Both the position numbers and the translations under genes were made by a program. From Streptomyces sp. ICC1 (GTDB lineage: Bacteria; Actinomycetota; Actinomycetes; Streptomycetales; Streptomycetaceae), in the NCBI RefSeq assembly GCF_003287935.1, contig NZ_CP030287.1, positions 5,907,022 through 5,971,021 on the forward strand: DNA of 64,000 nt. Reading direction: 5' to 3'. Positions within the stretch are counted from its first letter, which is position 1; each line of letters begins with the position of its first letter. The notes under the pieces were generated by a model. The model was not told the origin of the DNA. It worked only from the letters and a program-made list of their open reading frames with translations, and made no database searches. Shown here piece after piece: positions 27,335-44,221 of this stretch.

Positions 27335-28864
27335 TCAGTGCCCGGTCGCGGGGGGCGGGCACCCCGGCAGTTCCGGGCGGTCCTTCGTGCGGACGGCGGG
27401 GAGCCAGGCCGTGGGGGGTGTGGAGCCGGTCGGGAGGCGGACGTGGAACCAGCGGGTGGACTGCAGGTCCGCCTCGTCGATGATCGGCCGCCCGTCGGGC
27501 AGCTGGCAGTCGGCGGCGAGGACGTCACCGTGCCACACCCGGGTCGGTACGACGTTGTCCGCGGCGTACGGCCGCATCGGGTCGATCGCCAGGCCCAGAC
27601 TGCACTGCGGGTCCCGGTCGGCCCGCTCCTGGCAGCCCTTCTCCGCGTTGAACACCCGGATCGTGCCGGCCGCCGCACCCTCACGGCCGTCCAGTACGGA
27701 TGAGCTCGCCCGTGCCGCGTCCGACCACAACACCGTACCGGCGACCCCGCAGAGCGCGGTGGTGAGGACCGCGGCGCGGGCCCGGCCCCACAGCCGTCCC
27801 GCGCCCCTCCCGCGCGCCCCCTGTTCGGCGACGATGCGGGCGAGGAGGCTCTCGGCGGTGTGCGGGGCGCGCGCCGCGTGGGTCGGGGCGAGGCAGTCGG
27901 CGGCCAGTGCACGCCAGAACGGCGGCACGGCCTGGTCCATGCGCAGCGGCGCACGCCCTTCGCCGTACTCCTGGACGGCGGCGCCCCGCGCCATGGGGGT
28001 GGCGCCGGAGAACGGGGAGGCGCCGGAGCCGAACACCTCGTGGATGACGATGCCCAGGGCCCAGATGTCGGCGCTCGGCCTGACCTTCACCCCCAGTTCC
28101 CCCAGGGGTGCCCGCCAGCGCTCGGGCGGCAGGTAGTCCAGGGTGCCCATGGGCGGCGCGTACCCGTACGTCCCCGTCATCTGGGTGGCGAGGCCGAAGT
28201 CCGAGAGCTTCACGGAGCGGCCGGCGTCCAGCAGGACGTTCTCCGGCTTGAGATCGGCGTGGACCCAGCCCGAGCGGTGGAGATGGGCGAGTCCCTCGCA
28301 GATCCCCGCGATCAGCCGGGCGCGGTCGGCCTCGGGCACCCCCGCGTCGAGGAGGTCCCGCAGGCTGCCCGCGGCCCGCTCCATGACCAGCACGATCGCG
28401 CCGTCCAGGGCGGGGCGGTCCGGTGCCTCCAGGACGAAGGAGTCCAGGAGGCGGATCAGCCGCGCGTGCCCGGCCCTGCGCCCCAGTTCGACTTCCCGGC
28501 GGGCGGACTCCACGATCCTGCGCGTCTGGCGTGGCGCATACCCGGCGGTCGGCATGATTTTGAGCGCGATGTCGGCGGGCGCCGCTGGCCCGGGGGCCGC
28601 TTGCCCGGGGGCCGCTTGCCCGGGGGCCGCTTGCCCGGGGGCCGCTTGCGCAGTTGCCGCGTGCGCAGTTGCCTCCGACGCGTGCGCGGGGGCCCGGCCG
28701 CTCCTGTCCGGGTACCGGTCGGCCGGCCGGGCGGCGTAGACCGTGGACCAGCCTCCGGCCCCGATCAGGTCGGTGATCGTCCAGCCCTGCACCCGGAATC
28801 CGGGCGGGAGCACGTCCGTGCCGTCGCGTTCCGTGAGGTCGCGCAGGGCGTGCGGCGTCGTCAT
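27335..28864 (-). CDS. serine/threonine protein kinase, Hanks type, with repeat insert
   Basis: A 509-residue kinase. N lobe: glycine loop IGAGGWSTVY (34-43) and the lysine strand ALKIM (Lys102), separated by a 55-residue low-complexity insert with four AAPGQ repeats where most kinases have about ten. Catalytic loop VHADLKPENVLL (HAD instead of the common HRD), DFG at 222-224, DYLPPERW (APE-like). One membrane helix (about 371-388) is followed by an extracellular C-terminal domain with paired cysteines. HAD removes the RD arginine, so activation-loop phosphorylation may not be needed. ATG 28864 overlaps the FHA gene stop (ATGA), so kinase and FHA protein are coupled. Confidence 0.87.
   Translation of the reverse strand: MTTPHALRDLTERDGTDVLPPGFRVQGWTITDLIGAGGWSTVYAARPADRYPDRSGRAPAHASEATAHAATAQAAPGQAAPGQAAPGQAAPGPAAPADIALKIMPTAGYAPRQTRRIVESARREVELGRRAGHARLIRLLDSFVLEAPDRPALDGAIVLVMERAAGSLRDLLDAGVPEADRARLIAGICEGLAHLHRSGWVHADLKPENVLLDAGRSVKLSDFGLATQMTGTYGYAPPMGTLDYLPPERWRAPLGELGVKVRPSADIWALGIVIHEVFGSGASPFSGATPMARGAAVQEYGEGRAPLRMDQAVPPFWRALAADCLAPTHAARAPHTAESLLARIVAEQGARGRGAGRLWGRARAAVLTTALCGVAGTVLWSDAARASSSVLDGREGAAAGTIRVFNAEKGCQERADRDPQCSLGLAIDPMRPYAADNVVPTRVWHGDVLAADCQLPDGRPIIDEADLQSTRWFHVRLPTGSTPPTAWLPAVRTKDRPELPGCPPPATGH
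28589..28648. repeat. four 15-bp tandem repeats within the kinase gene
   Basis: CCCGGGGGCCGCTTG is repeated four times exactly. On the coding strand it encodes the AAPGQ repeats of the kinase N lobe, and is likely to vary in copy number by slippage. Confidence 0.85.
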
Positions 28865-29670
28865 CGCGCGGTCTGCCGCTCCCGCCCGCCGGCCCCCGTC
28901 AGGGGCGGCAGCAGCGTCAGGTGGTCCTCCCGTACGAGCCCGAACCGCAGCGCGAGTCCGACGATCTCCTCCCGCTTGCCGTTGCGGCGCTCGCCCTTGC
29001 CGGGTTCGCGCGGGTCCGGGCCGCCGATGCGCAGCTTCTCCTCGGCGAGGTAGTCGATGTGCGAGCTGACCGCACGCGCGGTCAGCGTGCCGCAGGCGAC
29101 GTGGCCCTTGAGCCGTTCGACGAGCTGCGGGGTCGTGGGGACCGCGACGCGGGACTGGTCGCGCAGGCGCGGTTCGCAGAGCGCGACGAGGACGAGGAAG
29201 TAGGTCGCCGTCTCGTCCAGGGAGTACGCGGTGACCGTGAGGCGGCCCCAGGGGGCGCCCATGGCTTCCGGGTCCAGATAGATGTGGTCGGGCGCGAACA
29301 CCTGGAAGGAGACGGGGACGTCGCTGCGGGTGGGCAGCACCACGCGCGAGAACTCGAAGGGGACGGGCGCCCCGACCCGTCGTGGCGGAACCCTCAGGTA
29401 CTCCCCGGCGCCCTCCGGGTTCTCCACCAGGTAGCTGTGGGTGGTGCTGTGGTTCGTCAGCTGCCAGTGGTCATCGGTCACGCGGATCTCCCCGGCGAGC
29501 CGGGAGATCGCCGCGTCGGCGAGGCGGAGCTCGACGGGGACCGTCGCGGAGCCGCGTCCGAAGCGGGCGGCCTCGCCCGGTCCGAGCCGCAACGTGACGG
29601 CGTCACCGTACGGTTCGCCGCCTTCGGCGCCACTACACCCCTGCGGCAGATGGACGACTACGCCGCTCAC
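28861..29670 (-). CDS. FHA-domain protein partnering the kinase
   Basis: A 269-residue cytoplasmic protein. Residues about 30-105 form a forkhead-associated domain (GEAARFGRGS ... LRLADAAISRLAGEIRVTDDHWQLTNHS), which binds phosphothreonine; the N-terminal strand, GR and SR-x-x-xxI pattern are recognisable. The following part (LTVTAYSLDETATYFLVLVALCEPRLR) and a helical C-terminus (SSHIDYLAEEKL) with a possible winged-helix character complete it. GTG at 29670 follows GGGGGGAG. It precedes and overlaps the kinase gene, so it is probably its substrate or adaptor. Confidence 0.8.
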   Translation of the reverse strand: MSGVVVHLPQGCSGAEGGEPYGDAVTLRLGPGEAARFGRGSATVPVELRLADAAISRLAGEIRVTDDHWQLTNHSTTHSYLVENPEGAGEYLRVPPRRVGAPVPFEFSRVVLPTRSDVPVSFQVFAPDHIYLDPEAMGAPWGRLTVTAYSLDETATYFLVLVALCEPRLRDQSRVAVPTTPQLVERLKGHVACGTLTARAVSSHIDYLAEEKLRIGGPDPREPGKGERRNGKREEIVGLALRFGLVREDHLTLLPPLTGAGGRERQTAR

Positions 29671-30143: not shown

Positions 30144-32183
30144 TCAGCCCGGCCGTCCAGTGGGACGGCCCGATACGACGGGTGCGACCGCGCGGTCGCC
30201 GAAGGCGGTCCACGGCCGCCACCCGCCGCTCGGCCGGTCCTGGACCCGGGTGCGCACCCGGCCCTCGGTGGTGACGGCGAAGACGTGCGTGCGCCCGGTG
30301 GCGTCGAGCGCGGCCGAGGGCGTGGCGGCGAGCCTGATGCCGGGCTCGCCGAACTCCCGTGCGGAATCCCAGCTTCCGCCCGGGGTGGTCTGCCAGCGGT
30401 GGCTGAGCCGGGCGCCACCGGGCGTCAGCGAGAACGCCTCGAGGCGGCCGTCCGCGTTGGCGGCGAACGCGGGGGCGGCGGCGCTCCAGTCGAACATCGG
30501 CAGCCACTCGTCCCAGCCCCCGCTGGGCACGGACTGCCGCCGGCGGAAGGTTCCCATGCCCGAGGGTCCGATCGCGGCAACGGTGAGCCGGCCGCTGCCG
30601 TCCCCGGCCACCCGCGGTGCGGCGCCGGCCGCGGTGCCGAAGCGGTGCCAGGCGGAGGTCCAGGCACCGCCCGGGGTCTCCTGCCACCGGTGGTCGATCG
30701 CGGCGCCGCCGGGCGCGAGGACGAACACCTCGAGGCGGCCGTCGGCGTTCGCCGCGACCACCGGCGGCGCGCCCGCGGCCCCGCCGAAGCCGGTCTCCCA
30801 CGGGTCCCAGGCCAGGGATCCGGGTGCCGCTTGGCGTCGCCGGGCGACGGAGGCGCCGCCGGGGCTCAGCGCGAACACCTCCAGCCGGCCGTCGGCGTCG
30901 CGGGCGACGGCGGGTGCGGCGCCGGCCGGGCCGCCGAACTCCTCCCAGTCGTACCAGCCGCCGTCCGGCCGCTGCACCCGGTGGTGCAGGTTGGCGCCCT
31001 CCGGGGCGAGCGAGAAGACCTCCAGCCCGCCGAGGGCGTTGCGGCCGAGCGTGGGAACGGCGCCGGCCGGCCCTCCGAACGTCTCCCACGGCGACCAGGT
31101 GTCGGTGTCCGGGTCGAGCTGGACGCGCCGCAGCATCGAGCGGTCGGAGGCGTCGAGCGCGAACACCGTGAGGCGGCCGACGACGTCGAGGGAGGCCACC
31201 GGGTTCTCCGCGCTCTGCCACGGCGGCGGTGTGTCCCGCCACTCGAGGGGCGCCACGTGCAGCCCGCCCCGGAACCAGCCCGCGGCGCTCGCGTACCAGG
31301 CGTCCCCGTCGGAGACCACTTCCACGGCGTGACCGGCCACGTGGCCCGCGTAGCCGACGAGGTCGAAGCGGAACGGGTCCCGGGACGCCAGCACGTCCGT
31401 GCCCTCGTAGCCGCCCCGCGGTCCGATGAACAGGTAGTACCAGCCGTCGCGCTCCACGACGTACGGCGACTCGGTGACCGAGACGGTCGTCTCCGTGGTC
31501 GTGTCGGTGAACACGACGGCCGGCTCGCTCCAGTGCACCAGATCGACGGACCGACGGCAGGCCACGACGTGGTGGCCGCCCGGACCGGAGAGTTCCGTGT
31601 AGTACATGACCCACTCGCCGCCGACCCGCAGCACCATCGGGTCACGCGCCACGAACCCGCGGAAGAGCGGCCCGGAGGGCTCGCGCGTCCAGGTGAACAG
31701 GTCGGTCGAGGTGGCGAGACTGATCGCGGCGCCGCTCTCGCCGCCGGCGGCGTAGAACATCCAGAACCTGCCGCCGGCGGCTACGACGTGGGGCGCCCAC
31801 AGGTGCTCCTCGCCGAAGTGGGACGGATCGACGGTGAGCGCGTCGGCGTGGGTGGTCCACGGCCCGTTCGGGCTCGGCGCGGAGGCATGGGCGAAGGAGG
31901 TCTCCCCCGTGCTGTCCGGGGATTCGCCGCGCGGCGCGCTGCGCCCGACGATGCTGAACAGGTGCCAGCGGTCCCGGGCCTTGATCAGCGTGTGGTCGTT
32001 GAGATAGCGCGGACCCTCCGAGGTGGAGGGGTCGTAGACGTACGTGAAGGGTCCCGCGCCGACCCACCGAGGGGGCGGCACGGTGTCGGCGGCCCGGGCC
32101 GCGGCCGGGCCGGCACCCAGGAGCGGGAGCGCGCCCGCCCCGGCGGCGCCCCGCAACAGGTTCCGTCTGCTGATCGGAAGCAT
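30144..32183 (-). CDS. Tat-secreted GH43/GH32-like protein with seven-repeat lectin propeller
   Basis: A 679-residue exported protein. A twin-arginine signal (ISRRNLLRGAAGAGALPLLGAG) is followed by a five-bladed propeller of glycoside hydrolase clan GH43/GH32 type (about 45-360): FTYVYDPSTSEGPRYLND, EEHLWAPHVVAAGGRFWMFY, VARDPMVLRVGGEWVMYY, VTESPYVVERDGWYYLF. Residues about 360-679 are seven repeats of ~45 residues with the core DADGRLEVFALSPGG ... W-x-x-W, a PLL/tachylectin-like carbohydrate-binding propeller. GGAGAG lies before the ATG at 32183. It is the third gene of an operon with the M23 and esterase genes. It may cleave or merely bind a polysaccharide; the catalytic acids are not certain. 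Confidence 0.82.
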   Translation of the reverse strand: MLPISRRNLLRGAAGAGALPLLGAGPAAARAADTVPPPRWVGAGPFTYVYDPSTSEGPRYLNDHTLIKARDRWHLFSIVGRSAPRGESPDSTGETSFAHASAPSPNGPWTTHADALTVDPSHFGEEHLWAPHVVAAGGRFWMFYAAGGESGAAISLATSTDLFTWTREPSGPLFRGFVARDPMVLRVGGEWVMYYTELSGPGGHHVVACRRSVDLVHWSEPAVVFTDTTTETTVSVTESPYVVERDGWYYLFIGPRGGYEGTDVLASRDPFRFDLVGYAGHVAGHAVEVVSDGDAWYASAAGWFRGGLHVAPLEWRDTPPPWQSAENPVASLDVVGRLTVFALDASDRSMLRRVQLDPDTDTWSPWETFGGPAGAVPTLGRNALGGLEVFSLAPEGANLHHRVQRPDGGWYDWEEFGGPAGAAPAVARDADGRLEVFALSPGGASVARRRQAAPGSLAWDPWETGFGGAAGAPPVVAANADGRLEVFVLAPGGAAIDHRWQETPGGAWTSAWHRFGTAAGAAPRVAGDGSGRLTVAAIGPSGMGTFRRRQSVPSGGWDEWLPMFDWSAAAPAFAANADGRLEAFSLTPGGARLSHRWQTTPGGSWDSAREFGEPGIRLAATPSAALDATGRTHVFAVTTEGRVRTRVQDRPSGGWRPWTAFGDRAVAPVVSGRPTGRPG

Positions 32184-32268
32184 GGGTCTCTCCAGGGATG
32201 CCTCGTGGTCGGCCGGGCCTCTGCGGGCTCGGCCGACCACGGGTCGGGTGGGGGCGGTCGCAGGAGGG

Positions 32269-33777
32269 TCAGTCGAGGCCGGGGCCGGCGGTGTTGTTGA
32301 GCCAGATCCAGTCGGACCAGCTGGAGAAGCCGGTCTGCCATCGGTGGTAGGTCCCCGCGCGGCTGGTCCCGAAGACCTCGATCCGTCCGTCGGCGTTCAC
32401 GGCCGCCGTGACTTCGGTGCCGCCGCCCCCGAAGACGGACCAGTCTTCGTAGGGCGCGTTGACGGCGGTCTGCCAGGTGTGCATGGCCGTACTGCCGTTC
32501 ATGGCGAAGACCTCGATCCGCCCGTCCGCCGTGCGCGTGCTGGTGAGCTGCGAGTCGACGGGCCCCCCGGTCGGCTCCCATTCCGACCAAGCGGTGGGAC
32601 TCGACTGGTACTTGTGGAACACCCCGCGCGGACCGGAGGCGAAGACCTCCAGGCGGCCGTCGGCGTTGTGGTCGACGGTGAGGTCGTGGCCGCCGCCTCC
32701 GAAGGCGTCCCAGTTCGACCAGCCGCCGTTGGGGGCCGTCTGGTACTTGTGCTGGAAGGTGTCGCCGGACAGGGCGAACACCTCGAGCCGGCCGTCGGGC
32801 GACTTCTCCATCTCCACCCGGCCGTTGGCGGGGCCTCCGCCGGTGGACTCCCAGTCCGACCAGCCGCCGTTGGGGGCGACCTGGTACCGGTGGAAGAGGC
32901 CGGACGGGTTGGAGGCGAAGACCTCCATGCGGCCGTCGGCGTTCACCCCGGCCGCCGTGTCGTGCCCGCCGCCGCCGAAGGTCTCCCAGTTCGACCAGCC
33001 GCCGGAGGGAGAGAGCTGCCAGCGGTGCTGGAAGGTGTTGCCGGACAGGGCGAACATTTCCAGGCGGCCGTCGGCATTGGGTGCGATCGCCAGTTCGGCG
33101 TTGCCCGGCCCGCCCAGCTGCTCCCAGGCCGACCAGTTGCCGTTCGCTTCCTGCTGCCAGGCGTGCTGCACGCCGTCGGCGCCGGCGGCGAACACCTCGA
33201 GGCGTCCGTCCGCCGACCGCGCCGACACCACCCGGCCCGACTCCGCCGGATACTCCAGCGGCTTGGGACGCGGACCGCTGCCGGGGGTGCAGGGCAGCAC
33301 GATGCCGCGCTCCGCGAGGTAGGCCTCGGGGTCGATGCCGTAGGAGGCGGACTGGTCCCCCCAGATCCGCAGATGGAGGTGGGGGCCGTCGACGTTGGTG
33401 CCCTCGGCGCCCACCAGGGCGATCTGCTGGCCGGCCACGACGTGGTCGCCCTCGAAGACGTCGCGCCTGGACATGTGCCCGTACTCGGAGATCCTCCCGT
33501 CGGGGTGCAGGATGCGGATCCACTGGCCGTAGTCCCCGATGTATCCGGAGATGGTCACCACTCCGTCACCCACGGCGTAGATCGGTGTCCCGAGGCCGGC
33601 CGCGATGTCGACGCCGTTGTGGCCGCTGTGGTAGTGCTGGGACACGGGTCCGGTGGTGGGACAGGCCGCGGTGAGATCGGCGGTCCGGGCCTCGGCCGGC
33701 CCCGAGGCTGCCAGCGCCGACAGCGCCGACAGGAGGACGGCCGTCGCCGCGAGTACGCGGCTCAACGGGCCGTTCAC
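32269..33777 (-). CDS. secreted M23 endopeptidase with seven-repeat lectin propeller
   Basis: A 502-residue exported protein. A signal peptide (RVLAATAVLLSALSALAASGPAEA) precedes a LytM/M23 zinc endopeptidase domain (about 30-165): metal ligands in HSGHNGVDIAAG and the HxH of GPHLHLRIWG, with the typical GYGDGVV/YGQWIRILHPDG strands. Such enzymes cut peptidoglycan cross-bridges. Residues about 185-502 are seven repeats ADGRLEVFA-x(10)-HRWQ-x(4-5)-W-x-x-W, the same lectin-like propeller as in the genes at 30144 and 39990. GTG at 33777 overlaps the esterase stop (GTGA). Confidence 0.9.
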   Translation of the reverse strand: MNGPLSRVLAATAVLLSALSALAASGPAEARTADLTAACPTTGPVSQHYHSGHNGVDIAAGLGTPIYAVGDGVVTISGYIGDYGQWIRILHPDGRISEYGHMSRRDVFEGDHVVAGQQIALVGAEGTNVDGPHLHLRIWGDQSASYGIDPEAYLAERGIVLPCTPGSGPRPKPLEYPAESGRVVSARSADGRLEVFAAGADGVQHAWQQEANGNWSAWEQLGGPGNAELAIAPNADGRLEMFALSGNTFQHRWQLSPSGGWSNWETFGGGGHDTAAGVNADGRMEVFASNPSGLFHRYQVAPNGGWSDWESTGGGPANGRVEMEKSPDGRLEVFALSGDTFQHKYQTAPNGGWSNWDAFGGGGHDLTVDHNADGRLEVFASGPRGVFHKYQSSPTAWSEWEPTGGPVDSQLTSTRTADGRIEVFAMNGSTAMHTWQTAVNAPYEDWSVFGGGGTEVTAAVNADGRIEVFGTSRAGTYHRWQTGFSSWSDWIWLNNTAGPGLD

Positions 33778-34763
33778 GCCTTGCGCAGCCGGTCGATGAT
33801 GCCGTTGATGTCGCGGTCCAGCATGTCGTGGCGGATGAAGTGCCCGCCGGGCAGCTCGTACCACTCGTGCGGGATCCCCGCATTGCCGAGGACGGCGCGG
33901 AACTCGCGCTGTGTGGCTAGCACTTGGCGCTCGTTGATGGAGTCGAACCAGTCGAGCGGCTGGGGGCTGGTGCCCGCGACGAGGAAGACCCGCTTGTTGC
34001 GGTAGCTCTCGATCCGCTGCACCGGGTTGTCCGCGGTCACCCGGGCCTCGTCCCAGAACGGCGCCCCGTAGATGGTCCCGCCGTTCAGGTCCAGGGCCGC
34101 GGAGGAGGCGTTGGCCCAGTGGGCCACGAGGCCGTTGTCCCTGCGCAGGCTCGCCGGGCCGGAGTGGGCGCTCACCGAGGCGAAGTGGCCCCAGTACTTG
34201 GCGGCGTACTTCAGCGCGCCGAAGCCGCCCATCGAGAAACCGGACACGGCACGGCCGTCGTACTCCGCGAACGTGCGGAAGTTCGCGTCGATCCACGGGA
34301 TCAGCTGGTGGATGTGGAAATCCTCCCAGTTGCGCGGACCGACGTTGGAGCTCACGGGGTTGGAGTACCAGCCCGCGTGGCCGCCGTCCGGCATCACGGC
34401 GATGATCGGCTTGCCCGCGGTCCAGTCCTTGATCCGCTCGCGGTCGAACGTGATGAAGTCCTGCCCCGTACCGCCGCCGTGGAGGAGGTAGACCACGGGG
34501 TAGGTGCGTCCGCTCCAGTGGTAGTCGTCGGGGAGGAGCACGTTGACGGCGGGGTTCCAGCCGATCGCGTTCGTCTGGAACCGGTAGTACCGCATGCGGG
34601 GGTCGTCCTCCCAGCGCTCGACGATGCGCAGGCCGTGGCCGTCACCGACGGCGGAGGCGGTCGACGCGCCGGCGAGGACTCCCGCACCTCCCATGGCCAT
34701 GGCGGCGGAGATGCCTCCGGCCGTTTTGAGGATGCTCCTGCGGGTGGGGTTCTGCGCGCTCAA
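33774..34763 (-). CDS. Tat-exported esterase, antigen 85/esterase D fold
   Basis: A 329-residue secreted alpha/beta hydrolase. The twin-arginine signal TRRSILKTAGGISAAMAMGGAG is clear. Then NVLLPDDY, the oxyanion YPVVYLLHGGGTG, the PDGGHAGWYSNP strand, a nucleophile elbow AVSGFSMGGFGALKY (Ser) and the C-terminal His (LPGGHFIRHDM). This is the family of antigen 85 mycolyltransferases, S-formylglutathione hydrolases and feruloyl esterases. TTG at 34763 is chosen because AGGAGG lies 5 nt upstream. It begins the operon with the M23 and GH43-type genes and resembles the esterase at 37600. Confidence 0.85.
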   Translation of the reverse strand: MSAQNPTRRSILKTAGGISAAMAMGGAGVLAGASTASAVGDGHGLRIVERWEDDPRMRYYRFQTNAIGWNPAVNVLLPDDYHWSGRTYPVVYLLHGGGTGQDFITFDRERIKDWTAGKPIIAVMPDGGHAGWYSNPVSSNVGPRNWEDFHIHQLIPWIDANFRTFAEYDGRAVSGFSMGGFGALKYAAKYWGHFASVSAHSGPASLRRDNGLVAHWANASSAALDLNGGTIYGAPFWDEARVTADNPVQRIESYRNKRVFLVAGTSPQPLDWFDSINERQVLATQREFRAVLGNAGIPHEWYELPGGHFIRHDMLDRDINGIIDRLRKA

Positions 34764-35073
34764 TGTGTCCTCCTGGTCGGGAGCCTGACGATGCGTCCGG
34801 GCGCAGCGGAATCCCCCGTCGCGCCGCGTCGTGCGCCGTGCCGGCCTTCTGGAGAGAGCGGGCCGCACGGACGATCTGGAAGGTAGCAACGCTCCGCGGG
34901 CCCGCAGACCCCGGAAGATTCCGGACTGACAGGCGAGCGCGCGTCGGCTAGGCGGTGGGAGGCACCGCGGGTGGCACCGCCGGGGCCGCGGGGGTGTCAC
35001 CGGGATTTCATCGCTCCTCCCTAGCGTGGCCCCGTTCGGGCACGGGCCTGGACCACAGGGGAAGGACGGCTCG
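34764..35073. other. divergent promoter region, esterase operon and acylase gene
   Basis: A 310-bp gap between divergent start codons of the esterase operon and the acylase gene. No promoter hexamers or strong inverted repeat are convincing. It is the likely control region of both arms of the island and a natural target of the SARP-like regulator. Confidence 0.5.
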
Positions 35074-37539
35074 ATGGCGCGGTGGAGATTCACAGCGAGG
35101 CTGCCGATGGTGCTCACGGCCGCGGTCGCGGTCATGAGCACGTTGGCGGCCACCGGATCACAGGCTCCGGCACAGGCATCGCCACAGGCATCGGCACCGG
35201 ACAAGCCGACGATCCGCTACACCGAATACGGGATCCCGCACATCATCGCCTCGAACTGGGAGGGGCTGGGCACGGGCTACGGGTACGCCGCCGCCAAGGA
35301 CAACATCTGCACCTTGGCCGACACCTATCTGATGGTCAACGCCCAGAGGTCCCGCTTCCTGGGGCCCGACGGCAGGGCGAGCCCCGGCGAGCACCAGAAC
35401 ACCACCAGCAATCTCAACAGCGACATCTACTTCCAACGGATGAACGACAACCGGGTGGTGGAGCGGCTGATCGACCTGCCCGCGCCCAACGGGCCGGAGC
35501 CGGAGGTGAAGGAGGCCATTCGCGGCTACGTCCAGGGATACAACCGCTACCTGGCCGAGACGGGCGCCGACAACATCACCGACCCGGCCTGCCGCGGCAA
35601 GGCCTGGGTGCGGCCGATCACGGAGCTGGACGTCTACCGGCACGCGCACGCCGAGATCATCATGGGCAGCGCCGACGTACTGCTCGACGGTCAGGTCAAC
35701 GCCGCGCCCCCGGGGGCTTCGGCCGCCGCCGCTCCGCCGGCCTCCTCGCCCGCGGAGACCGCGACGAAGATCCGCGACGCGCTGGCGGTCAACCGTCAGC
35801 AGAGCATGGGCAGCAACGCGCTGGCGGTCGGTTCCCAGGGAGTGTCCGGGGGCACCAGCATGCTGCTCGCGAACCCGCACTTCCCCTGGCAGGGCAAGAA
35901 CCGGATGTGGCAGAGCCAGCTGACGATCCCGGGAAAGATCAATGTCTCCGGGGCCAGCCTGCTCGGCTTCCCCGCGGTGAACATCGGGCACAACGACGAC
36001 GTCGCCTGGAGCCACACCGTCGCCACGGTGGCTCCCTTCGGACTGTTCGACGTACAGGTCGATCTGCTGAACCCGACCAACTACCTGGTCGACGGCGCCT
36101 GGCAGGCGATGACCTCACAGCAGGTCGGTGTCGACGTGCTGAACGCGGACGGTTCCATCGGCAGGGTCAACAGGACGTTGTGGGCCACCCGTTACGGCCC
36201 GATCACCACACAGGTGCTGACCGTGGGACTGCCCTGGGTGGTCAGCGCGCACGCGGTGCGCGACGTGAACATGGACAATCTGCGGGCGCTGAACACCTGG
36301 TTCCACCTCGACCAGGCCAAGGACGTCAACGAGGTGGTGAACACCTTGGAGACCACGCAGGGCGTCCCCTTCTTCAACACCGTCGCCTCCGACCGCAAGG
36401 GCAACGCGCTGTACGCGGACATCCAGGCCACCCCGAACATCACCGACGAGCACGCCCAGTCGTGCCTGACCCTGACCGGCCAGGCGCTGTTCAACCAGGT
36501 GCTGCGGCTGCCGAACGTACCGCCGGTCTCCATCTTCGACGGCAAGCGCAGCGCGTGCGACTGGCCCGACGACCCGAACGCGGTCGCGCCGGGACTGCTG
36601 GACCCGCGCAAGCAGCCGCGGCTGATCCGCAAGGACTTCGTGGGCAACGCCAACGACAGCGCCTGGCTGGCCAACCCCGAGCAGCCGCTGTTCTTCCCGC
36701 GGGTGATGGGCGACACGCGGACGCCCCGGTCGCTGCGCACCCAGGAGCTGATCCAGACCGCGCAGAAGCGGATCAACGGCACCGACGGCCTGCCCGGCCG
36801 GGGGTTCACGCCGGAGAACATGCGGCAGTTGCTGTTCGCCGACAACAGCCGGGCCGCCGATCTGGCCCTCGACGCCACGGTGACGATGTGCCGGAGCCTG
36901 CTCTTCGGGCTCATCCTGGTGGACGGCCAGCTGGTCAACGTGAGCGAGGCCTGCCCGATCCTGGCCGCCTGGAAGAGCCACGACTTCACGGCGGACAGCC
37001 GAGGGTCCTGGCTGTTCGAGAACTACTGGTACTCCCTGGTCGGCGGTCAGTCGATCGAGAAGCTGCCGTGGCGGGTTCCGTTCGACCCCAACGACCCGGT
37101 GCACACGCCCAACTCGCTGGACTCCGGAAGTTCCGCCGTCCGCGACGCGCTCGGCCGGGCGGTCATCGCCCTGCGCAACGCGGGAATTCCGCTGAACGCG
37201 CCGTTGTCGGACGTCCAGAAGATCACGCGGGGCGGTGAGCAGATCCCGATCCACGGGGCCGTCCACGAGATGGGCGTGCTGAACGTGATCACCCCCGGCT
37301 CGATCGACGGAAAGATGGACATCACCTTCGGGTCCAGCTTCATCCAGGTGGTGCGCTTCACCGCCGAGGGTCCGCCGCAGACCTCCTCCGTGCTGGCCTA
37401 CTCCCAGTCGGCCAACCCCAATTCGCCGCACTACGCGGATCAGACCAAGTTGTTCTCGGCGGGCCAGTGGGTGACCGAACGGTTCACGGAGGAGCAGATC
37501 GCGGCCTCACCGGCATTGGAGGTCAAGGTCCTGAACTGA
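35074..37539 (+). CDS. penicillin acylase-family Ntn hydrolase (aculeacin/AHL acylase type)
   Basis: An 821-residue secreted precursor. A signal peptide (MVLTAAVAVMSTLAATGSQA) is followed by the alpha chain, a spacer peptide (about residues 210-245, AAPPGASAAAAPPASS), and the beta chain that should start at Ser247 in QSMGSNALAVGSQG; cleavage at Gly-Ser exposes the nucleophile, as in aculeacin A and AHL acylases. Downstream are LLANPHFPW, the conserved IGHNDDVAWSHTVATV and later FGNANDSAWLAN-like contacts. It hydrolyses amides of long-chain acyl groups; possible substrates are lipopeptides or acyl-homoserine lactones. ATG 35074 is preceded by GAAGGA. The esterase gene follows after 60 bp. Confidence 0.92.
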   Translation: MARWRFTARLPMVLTAAVAVMSTLAATGSQAPAQASPQASAPDKPTIRYTEYGIPHIIASNWEGLGTGYGYAAAKDNICTLADTYLMVNAQRSRFLGPDGRASPGEHQNTTSNLNSDIYFQRMNDNRVVERLIDLPAPNGPEPEVKEAIRGYVQGYNRYLAETGADNITDPACRGKAWVRPITELDVYRHAHAEIIMGSADVLLDGQVNAAPPGASAAAAPPASSPAETATKIRDALAVNRQQSMGSNALAVGSQGVSGGTSMLLANPHFPWQGKNRMWQSQLTIPGKINVSGASLLGFPAVNIGHNDDVAWSHTVATVAPFGLFDVQVDLLNPTNYLVDGAWQAMTSQQVGVDVLNADGSIGRVNRTLWATRYGPITTQVLTVGLPWVVSAHAVRDVNMDNLRALNTWFHLDQAKDVNEVVNTLETTQGVPFFNTVASDRKGNALYADIQATPNITDEHAQSCLTLTGQALFNQVLRLPNVPPVSIFDGKRSACDWPDDPNAVAPGLLDPRKQPRLIRKDFVGNANDSAWLANPEQPLFFPRVMGDTRTPRSLRTQELIQTAQKRINGTDGLPGRGFTPENMRQLLFADNSRAADLALDATVTMCRSLLFGLILVDGQLVNVSEACPILAAWKSHDFTADSRGSWLFENYWYSLVGGQSIEKLPWRVPFDPNDPVHTPNSLDSGSSAVRDALGRAVIALRNAGIPLNAPLSDVQKITRGGEQIPIHGAVHEMGVLNVITPGSIDGKMDITFGSSFIQVVRFTAEGPPQTSSVLAYSQSANPNSPHYADQTKLFSAGQWVTERFTEEQIAASPALEVKVLN

Positions 37540-37599
37540 GACCGGTCCCCCGATCGGTCTCGCAACCGCGCAACGACAAGGCTCACGAGGGAGCATGCT

Positions 37600-38619
37600 G
37601 TGATGAGGAAGACAAGCCGGTGGCGCATGGTGGTGGCCTTGATGGCCGCCGTGGTGGGAATGGCGGTGCCGGCCGGTTCGGCACAGGCCGCCGACGACAC
37701 CGCGCCGCCGAGGATGGCGGACGGGTTCGGCCTGACCCAGGTCGACACGGCGGTGGGCGGCCCCACCAACTTCTACATCACCGTGACCACACCCGAGGTC
37801 GCGGGCAAGCACCACATCAAGATCATCCTGCCGAGCGGCTACCACGCCGACCCGACCCGGCGCTACCCGGTGCTGTACTTCCTGCACGGTTCGCCCGACG
37901 ATCCGATCCAGCAGAACTATCCGGCGCTGACCACCTCCACCGAGATGATCACGGTCATCCCGGACGGCGGCGCCCGCGGCTGGTACGCCAACTGGCTCAA
38001 CCAGCGGACCGCGGCCGGTGTCCAGAACTGGGAGAACTTCCACCTCAAGCAGGTGATTCCGTTCATCGACGCGAACCTGCGGACCATCGCCGCCAAGAAG
38101 GCCAGGGCGGTCGCCGGCGTCTCCATGGGCGGGTTCGGGGCCCTGCACTACGCCCAGGTCCGCCCGGACCTGTTCAGCCAGACCGCGTCCCTGTCGGGGG
38201 ACATCGACCTGTCGGTCAGGTCCATGGACCTGCGGATGGCCGTCGTCGCCTCCCTCGTCGGCTACGCGCCCAGCGTGGACAGTGACGCCGTGTTCGGCTC
38301 GCCCTACCCGGTGTTCAACGCCGACTGGCGGTTCAACGAGGTGAACCCCTCCGCGCACATGAACAAGCTCGCGGGGGTCGGGGTGTCCATCTACGTCGGC
38401 AACGGGCGCGGAGACGTCACCGACCTGGAGTTCTGGGTCGAGAGCGCGTCCAAGCACGTCAAGGCCAGCATGGACGCCCTGGGCATGCCCTACTACTACG
38501 TCGACTACGGCGACGGTGCCGGTTGGGGCACCCTGTGCAACGGCGGCCACAACGCCGGCTGCTGGGAAGAGGACCTCCGGGACCTGATCCCCCGTCTGGA
38601 GAGGTCCTTCGCCGCCTGA
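37600..38619 (+). CDS. secreted esterase, antigen 85 fold
   Basis: A 339-residue exported protein. A signal peptide (RMVVALMAAVVGMAVPAGSAQA) is followed by an alpha/beta hydrolase domain: IKIILPSGYH, YPVLYFLHGSPDD, VIPDGGARGWYANW, nucleophile elbow AVAGVSMGGFGALHYAQ (Ser) and late His in NGGHNAGCW. It is a relative of the esterase at 33774. The GTG at 37600 is placed 7 nt after GAGGGAG; the ATG at 37603 is a second option. It follows the acylase gene by 60 bp and is likely cotranscribed. A bidirectional terminator follows. Confidence 0.85.
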   Translation: MMRKTSRWRMVVALMAAVVGMAVPAGSAQAADDTAPPRMADGFGLTQVDTAVGGPTNFYITVTTPEVAGKHHIKIILPSGYHADPTRRYPVLYFLHGSPDDPIQQNYPALTTSTEMITVIPDGGARGWYANWLNQRTAAGVQNWENFHLKQVIPFIDANLRTIAAKKARAVAGVSMGGFGALHYAQVRPDLFSQTASLSGDIDLSVRSMDLRMAVVASLVGYAPSVDSDAVFGSPYPVFNADWRFNEVNPSAHMNKLAGVGVSIYVGNGRGDVTDLEFWVESASKHVKASMDALGMPYYYVDYGDGAGWGTLCNGGHNAGCWEEDLRDLIPRLERSFAA

Positions 38620-38621
38620 TC

Positions 38622-38676
38622 GCGCGGTGACCGGGCCGGGCCGGGCCGTAACCCGGCACCGGCCCGGTCACCGTGC
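38622..38676. terminator. bidirectional terminator, esterase and SARP genes
   Basis: A 16-bp stem (38622-38637 with 38661-38676, one G-T pair) lies between the esterase stop and the end of the convergent regulator gene, whose stop is inside the second arm. Confidence 0.7.
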
Positions 38677-39741
38677 GTCGCGGGCCGGTTCGAGTCCGGC
38701 ATCGTCCCCGAGCAGGACCATCTGCCGGGTCCGCCGCAGCAGGCGGCCGGGAGAGACGCCGAGGTCGTCGTCCAGACGGCGGCGGGCGCGCTCGAACACG
38801 GTCAGCGCGTCGGCCTGCCGGCCGCCGCGGTACAGCGCGCGCATCAGCATCGCCGCCACCGGCTCGTGCAGGGGGTGGGCCGCGGACAGGGCGAACAGCC
38901 CGGTGACCGCCTCGGAGTGCCGGCCCAGCCGCAGCTGCCCCTGCGACATCCGCTGCGCGACGGTGATCCTGAGCTCGGTGAGCCGCAGCCGCTCCAGCTC
39001 GGCGAGGGGCCCGGGCAGTCCGGCCAAGGGCTCCCCGCGAAAGAGGTCCAGCGCCCGGGAGCACAGACGGACCACCTCCTCCGGCTCATCCGCCCGGTCG
39101 GCGGCCTCCGCGCGGGCGGCCAGTCGCTCCATGCGCGCCACGTCCACGTCGACCGCGCCGGAGACCAGCCGGTAGCCGCAGCGGTCGTGCTCGATCACCG
39201 GGTCCGGGCGGCCGTCCCCGGCGTGCAGGGACTTGCGCAGCCGGTAGACGTACACCGGCACCACGTTCGTGACGGGCGGCTCCGTCCCCCATACCCCGTC
39301 GAGCAGTTCCTGCCGGCTGGCCGTCCGTCCCGCGCACAGCGCCAGCGCCGCCAGTACGGCCTGCTGGCGCAGGTGCCCCAGCTTCAGGGGCCGCCCGTCC
39401 TGCCGTGCCCGCACCGGTCCGAGCAGGGAGATCTCCACCTTCGGTCCGGACGCCCGGCCGGCGGCGGTCCGCGGCGCCGGGTCCGCCGCCCTCGTACGGG
39501 GGCCGCTGCCGGGGACCACGAGGCCGCAGTCGAAGGCGTGGACGATGGCCGCGGCCCGGTCGCGCAGCCCGAGCTTCACGAGGATCCGCGCGAGGTGTCC
39601 GGCGACGGCCTCCTCGGGCATGGCGAGGGCGGCCGCGATCTCGTCGTCCCGCAGGCCGCAGCCGATCGCGTGGAGCACCTTGCGCTCCCCCTGCACGAGG
39701 GCGGCGGCGGTTGGCCGGCGGGTGGTGGCGGTCGTCGTCAT
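38668..39741 (-). CDS. SARP-type regulator with N-terminal LuxR helix-turn-helix
   Basis: A 357-residue regulator. Residues about 10-65 form a LuxR/GerE helix-turn-helix (GERKVLHAIGCGLRDDEIAAALAMPEEAVAGHLARILVKLGLRDRAAAI). Residues about 95-190 hold the OmpR-type winged helix of SARP proteins (ISLLGPVRARQDGRPLKLGHLRQQAVLAAL ... VVPVYVYRLRKSLHAG ... YRLVSGAVDVDV). Residues about 195-345 are the BTAD domain. Ordinary SARPs have only the last two, so it carries two DNA-binding modules. GGGGAG lies 5 nt before the ATG at 39741. It stands between the two arms of the lectin-enzyme island and is probably its local activator. Confidence 0.85.
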   Translation of the reverse strand: MTTTATTRRPTAAALVQGERKVLHAIGCGLRDDEIAAALAMPEEAVAGHLARILVKLGLRDRAAAIVHAFDCGLVVPGSGPRTRAADPAPRTAAGRASGPKVEISLLGPVRARQDGRPLKLGHLRQQAVLAALALCAGRTASRQELLDGVWGTEPPVTNVVPVYVYRLRKSLHAGDGRPDPVIEHDRCGYRLVSGAVDVDVARMERLAARAEAADRADEPEEVVRLCSRALDLFRGEPLAGLPGPLAELERLRLTELRITVAQRMSQGQLRLGRHSEAVTGLFALSAAHPLHEPVAAMLMRALYRGGRQADALTVFERARRRLDDDLGVSPGRLLRRTRQMVLLGDDAGLEPARDAR

Positions 39742-39989
39742 CACTGCTCCCCGGGCTCCAGGCTGCTCGGCCGGTCCGGCCGATGCGGTGGACAAGGTAG
39801 TGCCGGGAGCGCCGGGCAAGGCATCCGGAACGATCCGGAGTGACACGGGCGACGGTGCCCGGTGAACTCTGTGTGCCCGGACTCCTCCGGCCGGTGCCCC
39901 GATTCGTCCCGCGCAGGTCAGCCGCCGCGAACGGCGGCCGGACACCGAGCGGATCGTGCGCACGCCACTTCACGACAGAAGGGAACACG

Positions 39990-41654
39990 ATGGCGATATC
40001 CGGTTTACGCCGCATGTTCACCAGACTGGCCTTGTCGGCCGGCACATGGGCTCTGGTCGTCGGAATGACGGCCTCGGCCGCCTCCGCCGCACCCGCACCC
40101 GTTCCGGGCCCGGGCGGCGACCGCTCCGGCGTCGCCCGGTACTTCAGCGGCCCGCAGGGCTTCGCCATTCCGACCGTGCCGTGCGATCCGGCCGGCCCGT
40201 CGGCCACCGACGGCATCCTGGCCGACCAGCTCAACCCGCAGTTGCAGGCGAAGATGGCCGGCTACATGAACGCCTACAAGGTGTCCTGCGCCCGGATGGT
40301 GACCCAGGCGGTGAAGGACCGGGGGCTCAACCAGCGGGCCGCGACCATCGCCATCGCCACGGTCATCGTGGAGTCCAGCCTCAACAACTACGCCCAGGCC
40401 GTCGACTACACCAGCCTCGGGCTGTTCCAGCAGCAGGACTGGTGGGGCAGCCGGGAGGAGCGGCTGAACCCGGCCTACGCCACCAACGCCTTCTTCGACG
40501 AGGTGGAACGGATGTATCCCGGCGGCTCGTGGAACAACGAGGCGATCGGCGAGGTGTGCTGGAACGTTCAGCGGCCGAGGGAGGACCTGCGCGGCCTGTA
40601 CGCCGTCGAGGCGGACGACGCGATGCTCATCGCCAACGCGCTGTGGTCCGGCACGGGCGCCACGGGCCCCAAGCACCCGTACGCCTCGGGCCGGGTGACG
40701 ACCGGGCGGTCCGCGGACGGCCGGCTCGAGGCCTTCGCCGCCGGCGCCGACGGCGTCTACCACGCGTGGCAGACCGCGGTGAACGGCGGCTGGTCGCAGT
40801 GGCGGTTCGAAGGGGGGCCGCGCAACGCGCAGTTGGCCGTGGCGGCGAACGCGGACGGCCGGCTGGAGGTGTTCGCCCTGTCGGACAGCACCTTCGACCA
40901 CATGTGGCAGACCGCACCCGGCGGGAGCTGGTCGGCCTGGGGGAACTTCGGCGGCGGCGGGTACCGACTGGCCGCGGGCAACAACGCCGACGGCCGCATC
41001 GAGGTGTTCGCCTCCAACGCCACCGGGGTGTTCCACCGCTGGCAGACCGCGCCCAGCGGCGGCTGGGCCAACTGGGAGGGCGTCGGCGGCGGACCGGCGA
41101 ACTCGCGGCTCGCCGTGGAGACCGCGCCCGACGGGCGTCTCGAGGTCTTCGCGCTGTCGGACTCGACCTTCGAGCACCTCTACCAGACCGGGGTCAACGG
41201 CGGCTGGTCCGCCTGGGAGAACTTCGGCGGCGGCGGTCACGACCTGGCCGCCGGCTACAACCAGGACGGCAGGCTCGAGGTGTTCGCGTCCAACGCCAAC
41301 GGCGTGTTCCACCGCTGGCAGACCGGCCCCGGCTCATGGTCGGACTGGGCCGGCATGGGCGGGATCTCCAACGCCGAACTGACGGTCTCGCGGTCGGCCG
41401 ACGGCCGGGTCGAGGTGTACGCGATCAACGCCAACGCGGCGGGCCACGCCTGGCAGACCCGCCCGAACGCGGCGTTCTCCGAGTGGGCGACCTTCGGTGG
41501 CGGCGGCACCGAGATCGCCGCGGGCAACAACGCCGACGGCCGCATCGAGGTGTTCGCCACCAGCCACGCCGGCGTTTACCACAAGTGGCAGACCGGCTTC
41601 GCCACGTGGTCGGACTGGGCCTGGCTCAACGACGGCGGCCCCGCGGTGAACTAG
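39990..41654 (+). CDS. secreted transglycosylase-like protein with lectin propeller (TTA codon)
   Basis: A 554-residue exported protein. A signal peptide (FTRLALSAGTWALVVGMTAS) is followed by a lytic-transglycosylase-like domain (about 75-235) with AATIAIATVIVESSLNNYAQ, in which Glu is the candidate acid, and SLGLFQQQDWWGSREERL, the lysozyme-like second motif. Residues about 240-554 are seven repeats of the lectin-like propeller (ADGRLEVFALSDSTFDHMWQT pattern) very close to those of the M23 protein. GAAGGGA lies before the ATG at 39990. Codon 6 (40005-40007) is TTA, so translation should need bldA. It probably cuts glycan strands of a bound cell wall. Confidence 0.85.
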   Translation: MAISGLRRMFTRLALSAGTWALVVGMTASAASAAPAPVPGPGGDRSGVARYFSGPQGFAIPTVPCDPAGPSATDGILADQLNPQLQAKMAGYMNAYKVSCARMVTQAVKDRGLNQRAATIAIATVIVESSLNNYAQAVDYTSLGLFQQQDWWGSREERLNPAYATNAFFDEVERMYPGGSWNNEAIGEVCWNVQRPREDLRGLYAVEADDAMLIANALWSGTGATGPKHPYASGRVTTGRSADGRLEAFAAGADGVYHAWQTAVNGGWSQWRFEGGPRNAQLAVAANADGRLEVFALSDSTFDHMWQTAPGGSWSAWGNFGGGGYRLAAGNNADGRIEVFASNATGVFHRWQTAPSGGWANWEGVGGGPANSRLAVETAPDGRLEVFALSDSTFEHLYQTGVNGGWSAWENFGGGGHDLAAGYNQDGRLEVFASNANGVFHRWQTGPGSWSDWAGMGGISNAELTVSRSADGRVEVYAINANAAGHAWQTRPNAAFSEWATFGGGGTEIAAGNNADGRIEVFATSHAGVYHKWQTGFATWSDWAWLNDGGPAVN

Positions 41655-42176: not shown

Positions 42177-42242
42177 TGCTGTGACCGGGAAGGTTCGCCG
42201 GGTTGCTCGTGGTGCTGGTTGGAAAGGAGTTCTCCAATCAGC

Positions 42243-43214
42243 GTGGGGAGGCGGGATGGCGCAACCGGTCCGGGTTCGCGGGCTGACCGAGCAGGAGGGG
42301 CTACGAGGCCCCGCCCCCCCGCCGCCCTGCGGGCCCGCGTCCGCAGCCTCGGCCCTTCGATGACCCGCTCCATGCAGGCCGTCGCCGAGGCCGTCGCCGC
42401 CGACCCCGCCGGGTGCGCCGCGCTCACCGTCAGCGACCTCGCCGCCCGCACCGGCACCAGCGAGGCCACCGTCGTCCGCACCGCCCGCCTCCTCGGCTAC
42501 CCCGGCTACCGCGACCTGCGCCTCGCGCTCGCCGCGCTCGCCGCGCAGCAGGAGTCCGGCGCGGCCCCCGCCGTCACCGTGGACATAGCCGTCGACGACT
42601 CCCTCGCGAACGTGGTCGCCAAGCTCGCCCACGAGGAGGCCCAGACCCTCGCCGACACCGCCGCCGGCCTCGACGTCGCCGCCCTCGGCGCGGCCGTGAC
42701 CGCCCTCGCGGGCGCCCGCCGCATCGAGATCTACGGCGTCGGAGCCTCCGGCCTCGTCGCCCAGGACCTCGCGCAGAAGCTGTCGCGCATCGGCCTCATC
42801 GCCCACGCGCACAACGACCCGCACCTGGCCGTCACCCACTCCGTCCTGCTCCGCCCCGGCGACGTGGCCGTCGCCATCACCCACTCCGGCGGCACCGGCG
42901 ACGTCATCGACCCCCTGCGGATCGCCTTCGAGCACGGCGCCACCACCCTGGCGCTCACGGCCCGCGCGAACTCCCCCGTCGTCCACTACGCCGACCTCGT
43001 CCTGGCCACCTCCGCGGCCCGCGAGACCCAGCTGCGCCCGGCCGCCATGTCCAGCCGCACCAGCCAGCTCCTCGTCGTCGACTGCCTCTTCGTCGGCGTC
43101 GCCCAGCAGACCTACGCGACCGCCGCGCCCGCGCTGGCGGCCTCGTACGAGGCGCTCGCACCCCGCCACCACACCCCCGTCCCCACCGCCAAGCGCAACA
43201 GCACCACCCGCTAG
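42243..43214 (+). CDS. MurR/RpiR-family regulator (probable frameshift near 5' end)
   Basis: A SIS-domain regulator, likely of MurNAc catabolism. Helix-turn-helix: SMTRSMQAVAEAVAADPAG ... LAARTGTSEATVVRTARLLGYPGYRDLRLAL; SIS domain: IEIYGVGASGLVAQDLAQKL and VAVAITHSGGTGDVIDPL, which bind a sugar phosphate. The frame is open from 42219 to 43214 but has no good start: GTG at 42243 is the coordinate given, about 323 residues. The best site is GGGGAGG before an ATG at 42256 in a different frame, which would join this frame if one base were missing from the run of seven Cs at 42314-42320. Frameshift or sequencing error is likely. The neighbours murQ and a PTS gene support the role. Confidence 0.8.
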   Translation: MGRRDGATGPGSRADRAGGATRPRPPAALRARVRSLGPSMTRSMQAVAEAVAADPAGCAALTVSDLAARTGTSEATVVRTARLLGYPGYRDLRLALAALAAQQESGAAPAVTVDIAVDDSLANVVAKLAHEEAQTLADTAAGLDVAALGAAVTALAGARRIEIYGVGASGLVAQDLAQKLSRIGLIAHAHNDPHLAVTHSVLLRPGDVAVAITHSGGTGDVIDPLRIAFEHGATTLALTARANSPVVHYADLVLATSAARETQLRPAAMSSRTSQLLVVDCLFVGVAQQTYATAAPALAASYEALAPRHHTPVPTAKRNSTTR

Positions 43215-43251
43215 CAGCCAGCAGCAGCCGTAGTAGTTCAGGAGCCCCCTC

Positions 43252-44184: not shown

Positions 44185-44221
44185 CCCCCAGCTGACCCCC
44201 AGCAGCAAGGCGAACACCAAG

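Follow-up and report, generated by a model that had tools for sequence, protein, structure and literature searches.

A lectin-propeller gene island of Streptomyces sp. ICC1 as a candidate envelope-lysis regulon, possibly directed against mycolic-acid bacteria

The gene island described here lies in a 64,000-nucleotide stretch (the window) of the single-contig, 9.03-Mb genome of Streptomyces sp. ICC1 (NZ_CP030287.1, positions 5,907,022 to 5,971,021), and encodes three putative wall-active enzymes, each ending in a seven-bladed lectin propeller; positions given below are window coordinates. The logic of the island resembles that of phage lysis cassettes and polysaccharide-utilisation loci, and the cassettes of mycobacteriophages also carry a LysB esterase. 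Several described systems share parts of this composition. First, mycobacteriophage lysis cassettes encode peptidoglycan hydrolases (of the M23, GH25, transglycosylase and cysteine-peptidase types) with C-terminal wall-binding modules including LGFP repeats (PMC3314691), and some actinophage cassettes carry DUF4185, as do loci related to the island (PMC10115798). Secondly, the umbrella toxins of Streptomyces use secreted beta-propeller lectins (UmbA) to direct a weapon to wall glycopolymers; the lectins bind a teichuronic-acid polymer with a terminal 4-O-acetyl sugar on target Streptomyces, and the propeller is six-bladed in the solved case, with seven 7-bladed families listed (PMC13274773). 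Thirdly, the Photorhabdus PLL/PHL lectins are free-standing proteins of seven W-motif blades, and PHL has a polar site (Arg91, Glu93, Trp107, Gln155, Trp163 and others) and a fucose site with Trp199 (PMC5584973). The GH184 muramidases described in PMC10394673 are fungal and carry SH3-like domains, and the yeast 'predatome' of Streptomyces comprises induced, secreted carbohydrate-active enzymes (CAZymes) acting against the prey envelope (PMC13170338).

The island departs from each of these. Unlike the phage cassettes it is chromosomal, is associated with a Streptomyces antibiotic regulatory protein (SARP) and a protein kinase, and has export signals, with PLL propellers replacing the phage wall-binding domains. 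The umbrella toxins form a toxin particle, whereas the island specifies putative lytic enzymes; its propellers are C-terminal modules of wall hydrolases rather than free lectins, one of them standing on a GH184-like protein; and it is a compact set of bacterial-wall hydrolases rather than CAZymes against yeast. We found no description of a gene set of this composition in the open-licence PMC literature. We read it as an accessory regulon whose enzymes, under common control, degrade envelopes and are directed against the wall of another bacterium, most likely a mycolic-acid bacterium, with a probability of roughly 0.55. Lysis of other bacteria is the best inference, and it is highly probable that the locus is a SARP-controlled, lectin-guided envelope-lysis regulon; mycolic-acid bacteria as the prey are plausible and testable, at somewhat short of even odds.

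All three strong PLL-type propellers of the genome fall inside 11.5 kb, and the island extends leftward from these to 27.3 kb, adding a kinase and an FHA-like gene. The minus strand carries, from the left, the Ser/Thr protein kinase gene KIN (27335..28864, a 509-residue open reading frame [ORF]; Pfam Pkinase 3.9e-32 for a translation with a shorter start), the FHA-like gene (28861..29592, its stop overlapping the kinase start; the ORF runs to 29730, so the true start is possibly further upstream), GH43-PLL (30144..32183), M23-PLL (32269..33777) and est1 (33774..34763). The GTG start of M23-PLL overlaps the est1 stop, and because the est1/M23-PLL and FHA-like/kinase ORFs each overlap by four bases, est1-M23-GH43 and FHA-kinase look like operons. 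An acylase gene (35074..37539) and est2 (37603..38619) follow on the plus strand, then the SARP gene on the minus strand (38668..39741) and muramidase-PLL ('TGP') on the plus strand (39990..41654).

The preliminary description of this DNA, made from the sequence alone, recognised three different N-terminal modules on one type of seven-repeat propeller, and this holds. Its GH43/GH32-like and M23 assignments are supported by Pfam, the first as GH43: GH43-PLL has a twin-arginine translocation (TAT)-like signal and a GH43 module (candidate triad D63/D181/E238, assigned by eye) that resembles endo-1,5-arabinanases, among other matches, and M23-PLL has a signal-like N-terminus and an M23 endopeptidase module with H53, D57 and HLH 133-135, residues assigned by motif. 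The third head, previously called transglycosylase-like, does not stand as such; structure comparison of the predicted model (mean predicted local distance difference test score, pLDDT, 71.7) finds the GH184 catalytic-domain fold, and all 12 heads aligned share a Glu (Glu128) that closes model helix 53-66, in keeping with the catalytic Glu of GH184 muramidases, which lies at the end of helix 2. We therefore gave up the reading as a classical transglycosylase; on the modelled fold the head is a GH184-like muramidase. The acylase and the regulator were also correctly recognised as an N-terminal-nucleophile enzyme and a SARP-like protein beside the 'transglycosylase' gene. The former is a PvdQ/MacQ-like member of family S45 (Pfam 3.7e-126; PDB 5c9i, 8.6e-144) that aligns to both chains, PvdQ beta chains beginning at query residue 247 and Ser247 standing at the beta-chain start; against NCBIfam PvdQ it scores 584 bits, under the cut-off of 950. 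The latter combines the OmpR-type DNA-binding and BTAD domains of a SARP (Pfam Trans_reg_C 6.9e-12, BTAD 1.9e-37) with an extra LuxR-type helix-turn-helix (GerE 1.6e-6). The two esterases belong to PF00756. The product of est1 is CE1-like, with a TAT-like signal and the motif GFSMGG (Ser177), and has no mycoloyltransferase among 21 PDB sequence matches. That of est2 falls in the CE1/mycoloyltransferase superfamily (GVSMGG, Ser174; signal-like N-terminus) and has PS1 as its best match by sequence (3.2e-19), but feruloyl esterase outscores MytA in fold comparison (Z 21.8 vs 20.3), and for that reason we no longer regard it as a proven mycoloyltransferase. Both match feruloyl/CE1 esterases.

The propellers (GH43-PLL, 30147..31223, and M23-PLL, 32272..33240, on the minus strand; muramidase-PLL, 40686..41651, on the plus strand) are all placed in the PLL/PHL lectin family by PDB sequence search (E 1e-67 to 1.5e-44), and each contains seven W-motif repeats. 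The profile libraries do not name them: Pfam gives FG-GAP_3 only, and NCBIfam beta_propeller_lectin matches weakly (34.5 bits, cut-off 200). The M23 and muramidase propellers are 63–64% identical, and the GH43 propeller stands at 36%. Candidate sugar sites were read from the alignment with PHL (5mxe) and from the residues named in PMC5584973. The motifs R-x-E and H-x-[WY]-Q occur in 7/7 blades of both the M23 and the muramidase propeller (Tyr replacing Trp in three blades of the former and one of the latter) and the first Trp of WxxW in 6/7, so that most polar (galactose) site residues of the Photorhabdus lectins are kept. The GH43 propeller is largely degenerate, with HRWQ in 2/7 blades and R-x-E in 3/7, and does not conform to the PHL polar site. 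As judged by these residues, the M23 and muramidase propellers could bind sugar in a PHL-like polar mode, and binding by the GH43 propeller is doubtful. The Trp of the fucose site (the W199 position, preceding the His of HxWQ) is not kept in either of the former, the seven positions reading Q,Q,F,Q,F,M,Y and Y,D,F,E,F,G,Y; a specificity for fucose or O-methyl sugars (as in M. leprae PGL-I), an idea taken from the PHL paper, was dropped with it.

The island genes are inherited together. A survey of 392 congeneric Streptomyces genomes at E 1e-40, in which five candidates were scored per genome and the number found in each is thereby limited, finds a PLL propeller in 38. Full-length or nearly full-length propellers number at least 82, in 30 genomes, 28 of which have at least two inside 20 kb; 77 of the 82 are clustered, the exceptions being G223 (a single propeller) and G059 (separate contigs). 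We compared 39 loci of 35 genomes (the window and 38 others, namely 7 from a first set of 20, whose other 13, L043 and L045-L056, were mapped but not counted, and all 31 of a later set), with genes called by a simple codon-bias script that may miss some. Among these loci the kinase, FHA-like and M23-PLL families each occur 27 times, GH43-PLL 22, est1 18, est2 17, muramidase-PLL 14, acylase and SARP 12 each, and cutinase and SLT_3-PLL 8 each. The 27 kinase-bearing loci have an adjoining FHA-like gene in 26 cases, M23-PLL in 25, GH43-PLL in 20, a muramidase in 12 and SLT_3 in 8, and NlpC- or GH25-type heads occur elsewhere. Gene order is rearranged between loci and the flanks are mostly unlike, common only to a few genome pairs or trios.

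Two cis-elements accompany these genes, both of which arose from an unsupervised count of upstream 9-mers, along with many GC-rich words, and were then tested. Motif A, TGTCASTCCGGA-N3-TTCCGG, is 21 bp long and has exactly two sites in the 9.03-Mb genome, both on the minus strand of the island: TGTCAGTCCGGA-ATC-TTCCGG at 34911..34931, upstream of est1-M23-GH43, and TGTCACTCCGGA-TCG-TTCCGG at 39825..39845, between the SARP gene and muramidase-PLL. Among 26 other, selected genomes (16 with island families and 10 without propellers, of which G005 has est1), 14 contain a total of 17 sites, every one in a locus that also has island genes; the 10 propeller-less genomes have none, nor has a reversed-pattern control any among the 26, and G004 and G219 lack a site despite having island families. 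Sixteen of the 17 sites lie in previously collected loci, and the other (G113:C10:187373) leads to a new locus with a cutinase (92%, confirmed by Pfam) and a SARP (78%). Motif B, RTTTCATCG, occurs 32 times across the 39 loci, upstream of acylase (11), cutinase (8), muramidase-PLL (7), est2 (1) or another gene (1), with four assigned to none. This is 42.5 per Mb, against 1.5 per Mb (1 in 648 kb) in 46 comparison loci (among them DUF4185 and LGFP loci; est1 is present in two of the 46). The target promoters of SARPs have direct repeats at 11 or 22 bp, the 3′ copy standing 8 bp away from the −10 element (PMC10936776, PMC4393881). Upstream of the acylase, on the plus strand at 34995..35013, the window has the repeat TGTCACCG/TTTCATCG at an 11-bp pitch, its 3′ end 8 bp ahead of TAGCGT (35022-35027); the whole, TGTCACCG-N3-TTTCATCG-N8-TAGCGT, has the geometry of a SARP site if TAGCGT is assumed to be the −10 element. 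A strict tandem form gives 10 matches in 2.36 Mb of loci, seven of them at acylase or cutinase genes (that of L007 being the same site as in the window) and the other three in L090, L092 and L095, of which L092 lies on a contig of equal length to that of L038. The gene set is conserved but rearranged and differently flanked, and it has cis-elements of its own; this co-inheritance and the island-specific elements run counter to the outcome that the preliminary description had named as refuting it, orthologues scattered singly.

That description also proposed that a shared binding domain directs several enzymes to one glycan, which survives in part. In a tree of the 82 propellers with pairwise identities (in which L065 was placed according to its head sequence and L074, with a split gene call, was excluded), the propellers of SLT_3-headed proteins form no family of their own. 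Within an island they are 91–100% identical to the M23 propeller in seven of eight islands (83% in L075), against a mean of 72–80% to the M23 propellers of other islands, and the SLT_3 heads are one family (77–97%). Because the propellers are near-identical within islands and less alike between them, the binding domain of SLT_3/M23 islands reads as being under concerted evolution inside one strain, which speaks for shared targeting there. Homogenisation does not reach the muramidase propellers (63–68%, 12 islands) or the GH43 propellers (36–44%, 20 islands), and the window contains no SLT_3 protein. Given the motif loss in GH43-PLL and the unhomogenised M23 and muramidase propellers, a single shared glycan is only a possibility in the window. 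Nothing in the results on the window and related loci bears on the sheath remodelling that was also suggested.

The binding module is itself exchangeable. The FHA-like family occurs at 1e-20 in 181 of 392 genomes, and in 20 further fetched genomes with relatives at ≥63% identity none of the loci has a propeller (the genomes of G363 and G377 contain a partial one in another place). These 20 kinase/FHA loci retain the regulators and lysins, with est1 in 5, LGFP-repeat lysins in 5, M23 without a propeller in 9, a second M23 type in 8, small ricin-type proteins in 6 and DUF4185 in 2 (G396 and G113), and that of G153 has a SARP and a cutinase. Regulators and lysins are thus the constant part.

We know of few enzymes that breach the mycolic-acid envelope. 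DUF4185 is the GH183 endo-D-arabinanase, active on mycobacterial wall D-arabinan; it is common in actinobacteria and is also found in a bacterial predator and in some phage lysis cassettes (PMC10115798). A mycobacteriophage endolysin contains LGFP repeats, and those of corynebacterial PS1 have been proposed to anchor it to the wall (PMC3314691). We found 28 DUF4185 matches in 27 of 246 Streptomyces genomes, six of them beside island families (≥60% identity) and 22 not; the neighbours are est1 in G113, G153 and G165, est2 and a SARP in G219, an LGFP lysin in G045, and an LGFP lysin and kinase in G262. The est1 gene directly adjoins DUF4185 in three genomes, where 0.015 would be expected, and the two occur together in 13 genomes against an expected 4.6, with no correction for kinship; by genome, DUF4185 is not enriched with est2 (5 vs 3.3 expected) or LGFP (3 vs 3.3). 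Motif B precedes both est2 and the neighbouring DUF4185 gene in G219, motif A precedes an operon with DUF4185, est1 and lysins in G396 and G113, and in G063 and G066, which belong to another family of the order, a GH25-propeller gene lies beside that for DUF4185. LGFP is matched in 30 of the 246 genomes and adjoins island families in at least seven (G034, G037, G045, G059, G116, G257 and G262); among 14 control genomes, LGFP and cutinase match only in Corynebacterium glutamicum. A search for GH172 gave no match in the ICC1 genome, but none in the controls either, and so carries no weight. No PDB relative of the L101 DUF4185 protein is found at 0.01, and the L038 cutinase matches CE5/cutinase only weakly. 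L131 and L133 have DUF4185 next to a shorter gene matching LGFP lysins at 41–42%, possibly a further arabinan-degrading pair outside the islands.

We favor mycolic-acid prey on the strength of the related loci, which share the regulatory elements and esterase families and encode DUF4185 enzymes and LGFP-repeat lysins. Against this interpretation, the ICC1 genome itself has no DUF4185, LGFP or cutinase match, such that for this strain the link is through the shared regulon and relatives. A more specific version, which we hold only tentatively, is that the island is a dedicated regulon for lysis of mycolic-acid bacteria, a Streptomyces analogue of the mycobacteriophage lysis cassette, under SARP and kinase/FHA control. 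Its enzymes would act layer by layer (on mycolyl or other esters, N-acyl lipids, arabinogalactan and peptidoglycan), and its exchangeable binding modules (PLL propeller, LGFP, ricin-type) would be near-identical in some strains through concerted evolution.

The strongest alternative, albeit an unlikely one, is that the regulon serves instead to lyse competitors, either other Streptomyces or Gram-positive bacteria, with propellers binding strain-variable teichuronic or teichoic glycopolymers, esterases removing O-acyl groups, and hydrolases opening the wall. The variation of the propellers between strains and their homogenisation inside SLT_3/M23 islands fit this, and the umbrella toxins are a precedent, with other propellers; it leaves unexplained the DUF4185 arabinanase-family genes that share the cis-elements, and the LGFP lysins. 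Pfam scans of 17 window genes, with no dedicated search, gave no umbrella-type genes (the UmbA trypsin-like domain, UmbB or UmbC).

It is improbable that the producer's own wall is remodelled or lysed, in development or mycelial death, under control of the kinase and SARP. Ser/Thr kinases and M23/muramidase-type enzymes do serve actinobacterial growth control, and directly downstream of the muramidase gene (42219-45769) are an RpiR-type regulator, a SIS-domain protein that we take to be MurQ-like, and a phosphotransferase system (PTS) EIIBC permease, possibly for uptake of an amino sugar (N-acetylmuramic acid) beside a wall lysin. However, these genes have no family in common with the other 38 loci, the island is accessory (with propellers in 38/392 congeners, and mostly variable flanks), and Streptomyces to our knowledge has neither mycolates nor arabinogalactan. 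A saprotrophic cluster for plant or fungal matter, acting through feruloyl-type esterases, GH43 arabinanase and cutinase, is just as improbable, since for all the feruloyl/CE1 matches of est1 and est2, the endo-1,5-arabinanase matches of GH43 and the precedent of Streptomyces preying on yeast with secreted CAZymes (PMC13170338), the constant island members are bacterial-wall enzymes (M23, SLT_3 and muramidase, with NlpC- and GH25-type elsewhere) and no cellulase, xylanase, pectinase or chitinase is found among the scanned proteins, which cover part of the neighbours.

If the island is indeed an envelope-lysis regulon, the SARP would turn on the acylase-est2 operon and the lysin genes through the 11-bp direct-repeat box, motif A would mark the est1-M23-GH43 operon and the SARP/muramidase region, and the kinase and FHA-like pair would probably link expression to a surface signal. 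The exported esterases and acylase would then act on the acyl layer, GH43 on wall polysaccharide, and M23 and the muramidase on peptidoglycan, with PLL propellers anchoring the hydrolases on wall glycan. The chromosome would then encode a set of several enzymes that together open bacterial walls, and possibly the mycolic-acid envelope, with a proposed regulator and proposed cis-elements. The island would in that case supply candidate wall-lytic enzymes that come with their own targeting domains, and would be a natural experiment on how such domains are exchanged and homogenised. Pigment production by Streptomyces lividans requires physical contact with living mycolic-acid bacteria (PMC9068768, PMC4636228), and the island genes allow a test of whether such contact can be predatory.

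The kinase pair has several further features. The FHA-like family has only a sub-threshold Pfam match, to Yop-YscD_cpl (6/7 members, best 0.0021), and we presume it to be FHA-like by eye. The C-terminal part of the kinase appears to contain a weak membrane segment and, beyond it, a domain with Cys; a hydrophobic segment scoring above 1.6 is present in 8 of 10 kinases compared, the window kinase not being among the eight. The kinase C-terminus and its orthologues have a conserved Cys and the pattern W..V.LP...AWLPAVR, by eye like the SH3-like lysin tails in kinase loci, and this region may be a wall-sensing domain. PADLOC matches of the kinase (MAD6, PD-T4-6) are taken to reflect generic kinase similarity, and we did not adopt a defence role.

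Other propeller clusters were seen outside the main set. L047, L049 and L051, from another family of the same order, have three to four divergent propeller proteins clustered (up to ~1370 residues), with a GDSL lipase-family neighbour in L047, and are possibly a second type of propeller island. L082 (genes 8-9), L083 and L084 have propellers of a distinct lineage joined to a different family of heads, adjoined in all three loci by a large ATPase-like regulator (f18, ~1046 residues, by eye). Within the window, 19820-20908 has a C-terminal neocarzinostatin-family domain (Pfam 8.1e-13) over a weak propeller-like match (1.7e-4), and other weak propeller-like matches in the same genome lie at contig positions 1931276-1931926 (1e-11) and 8572084-8572329 (1e-5).

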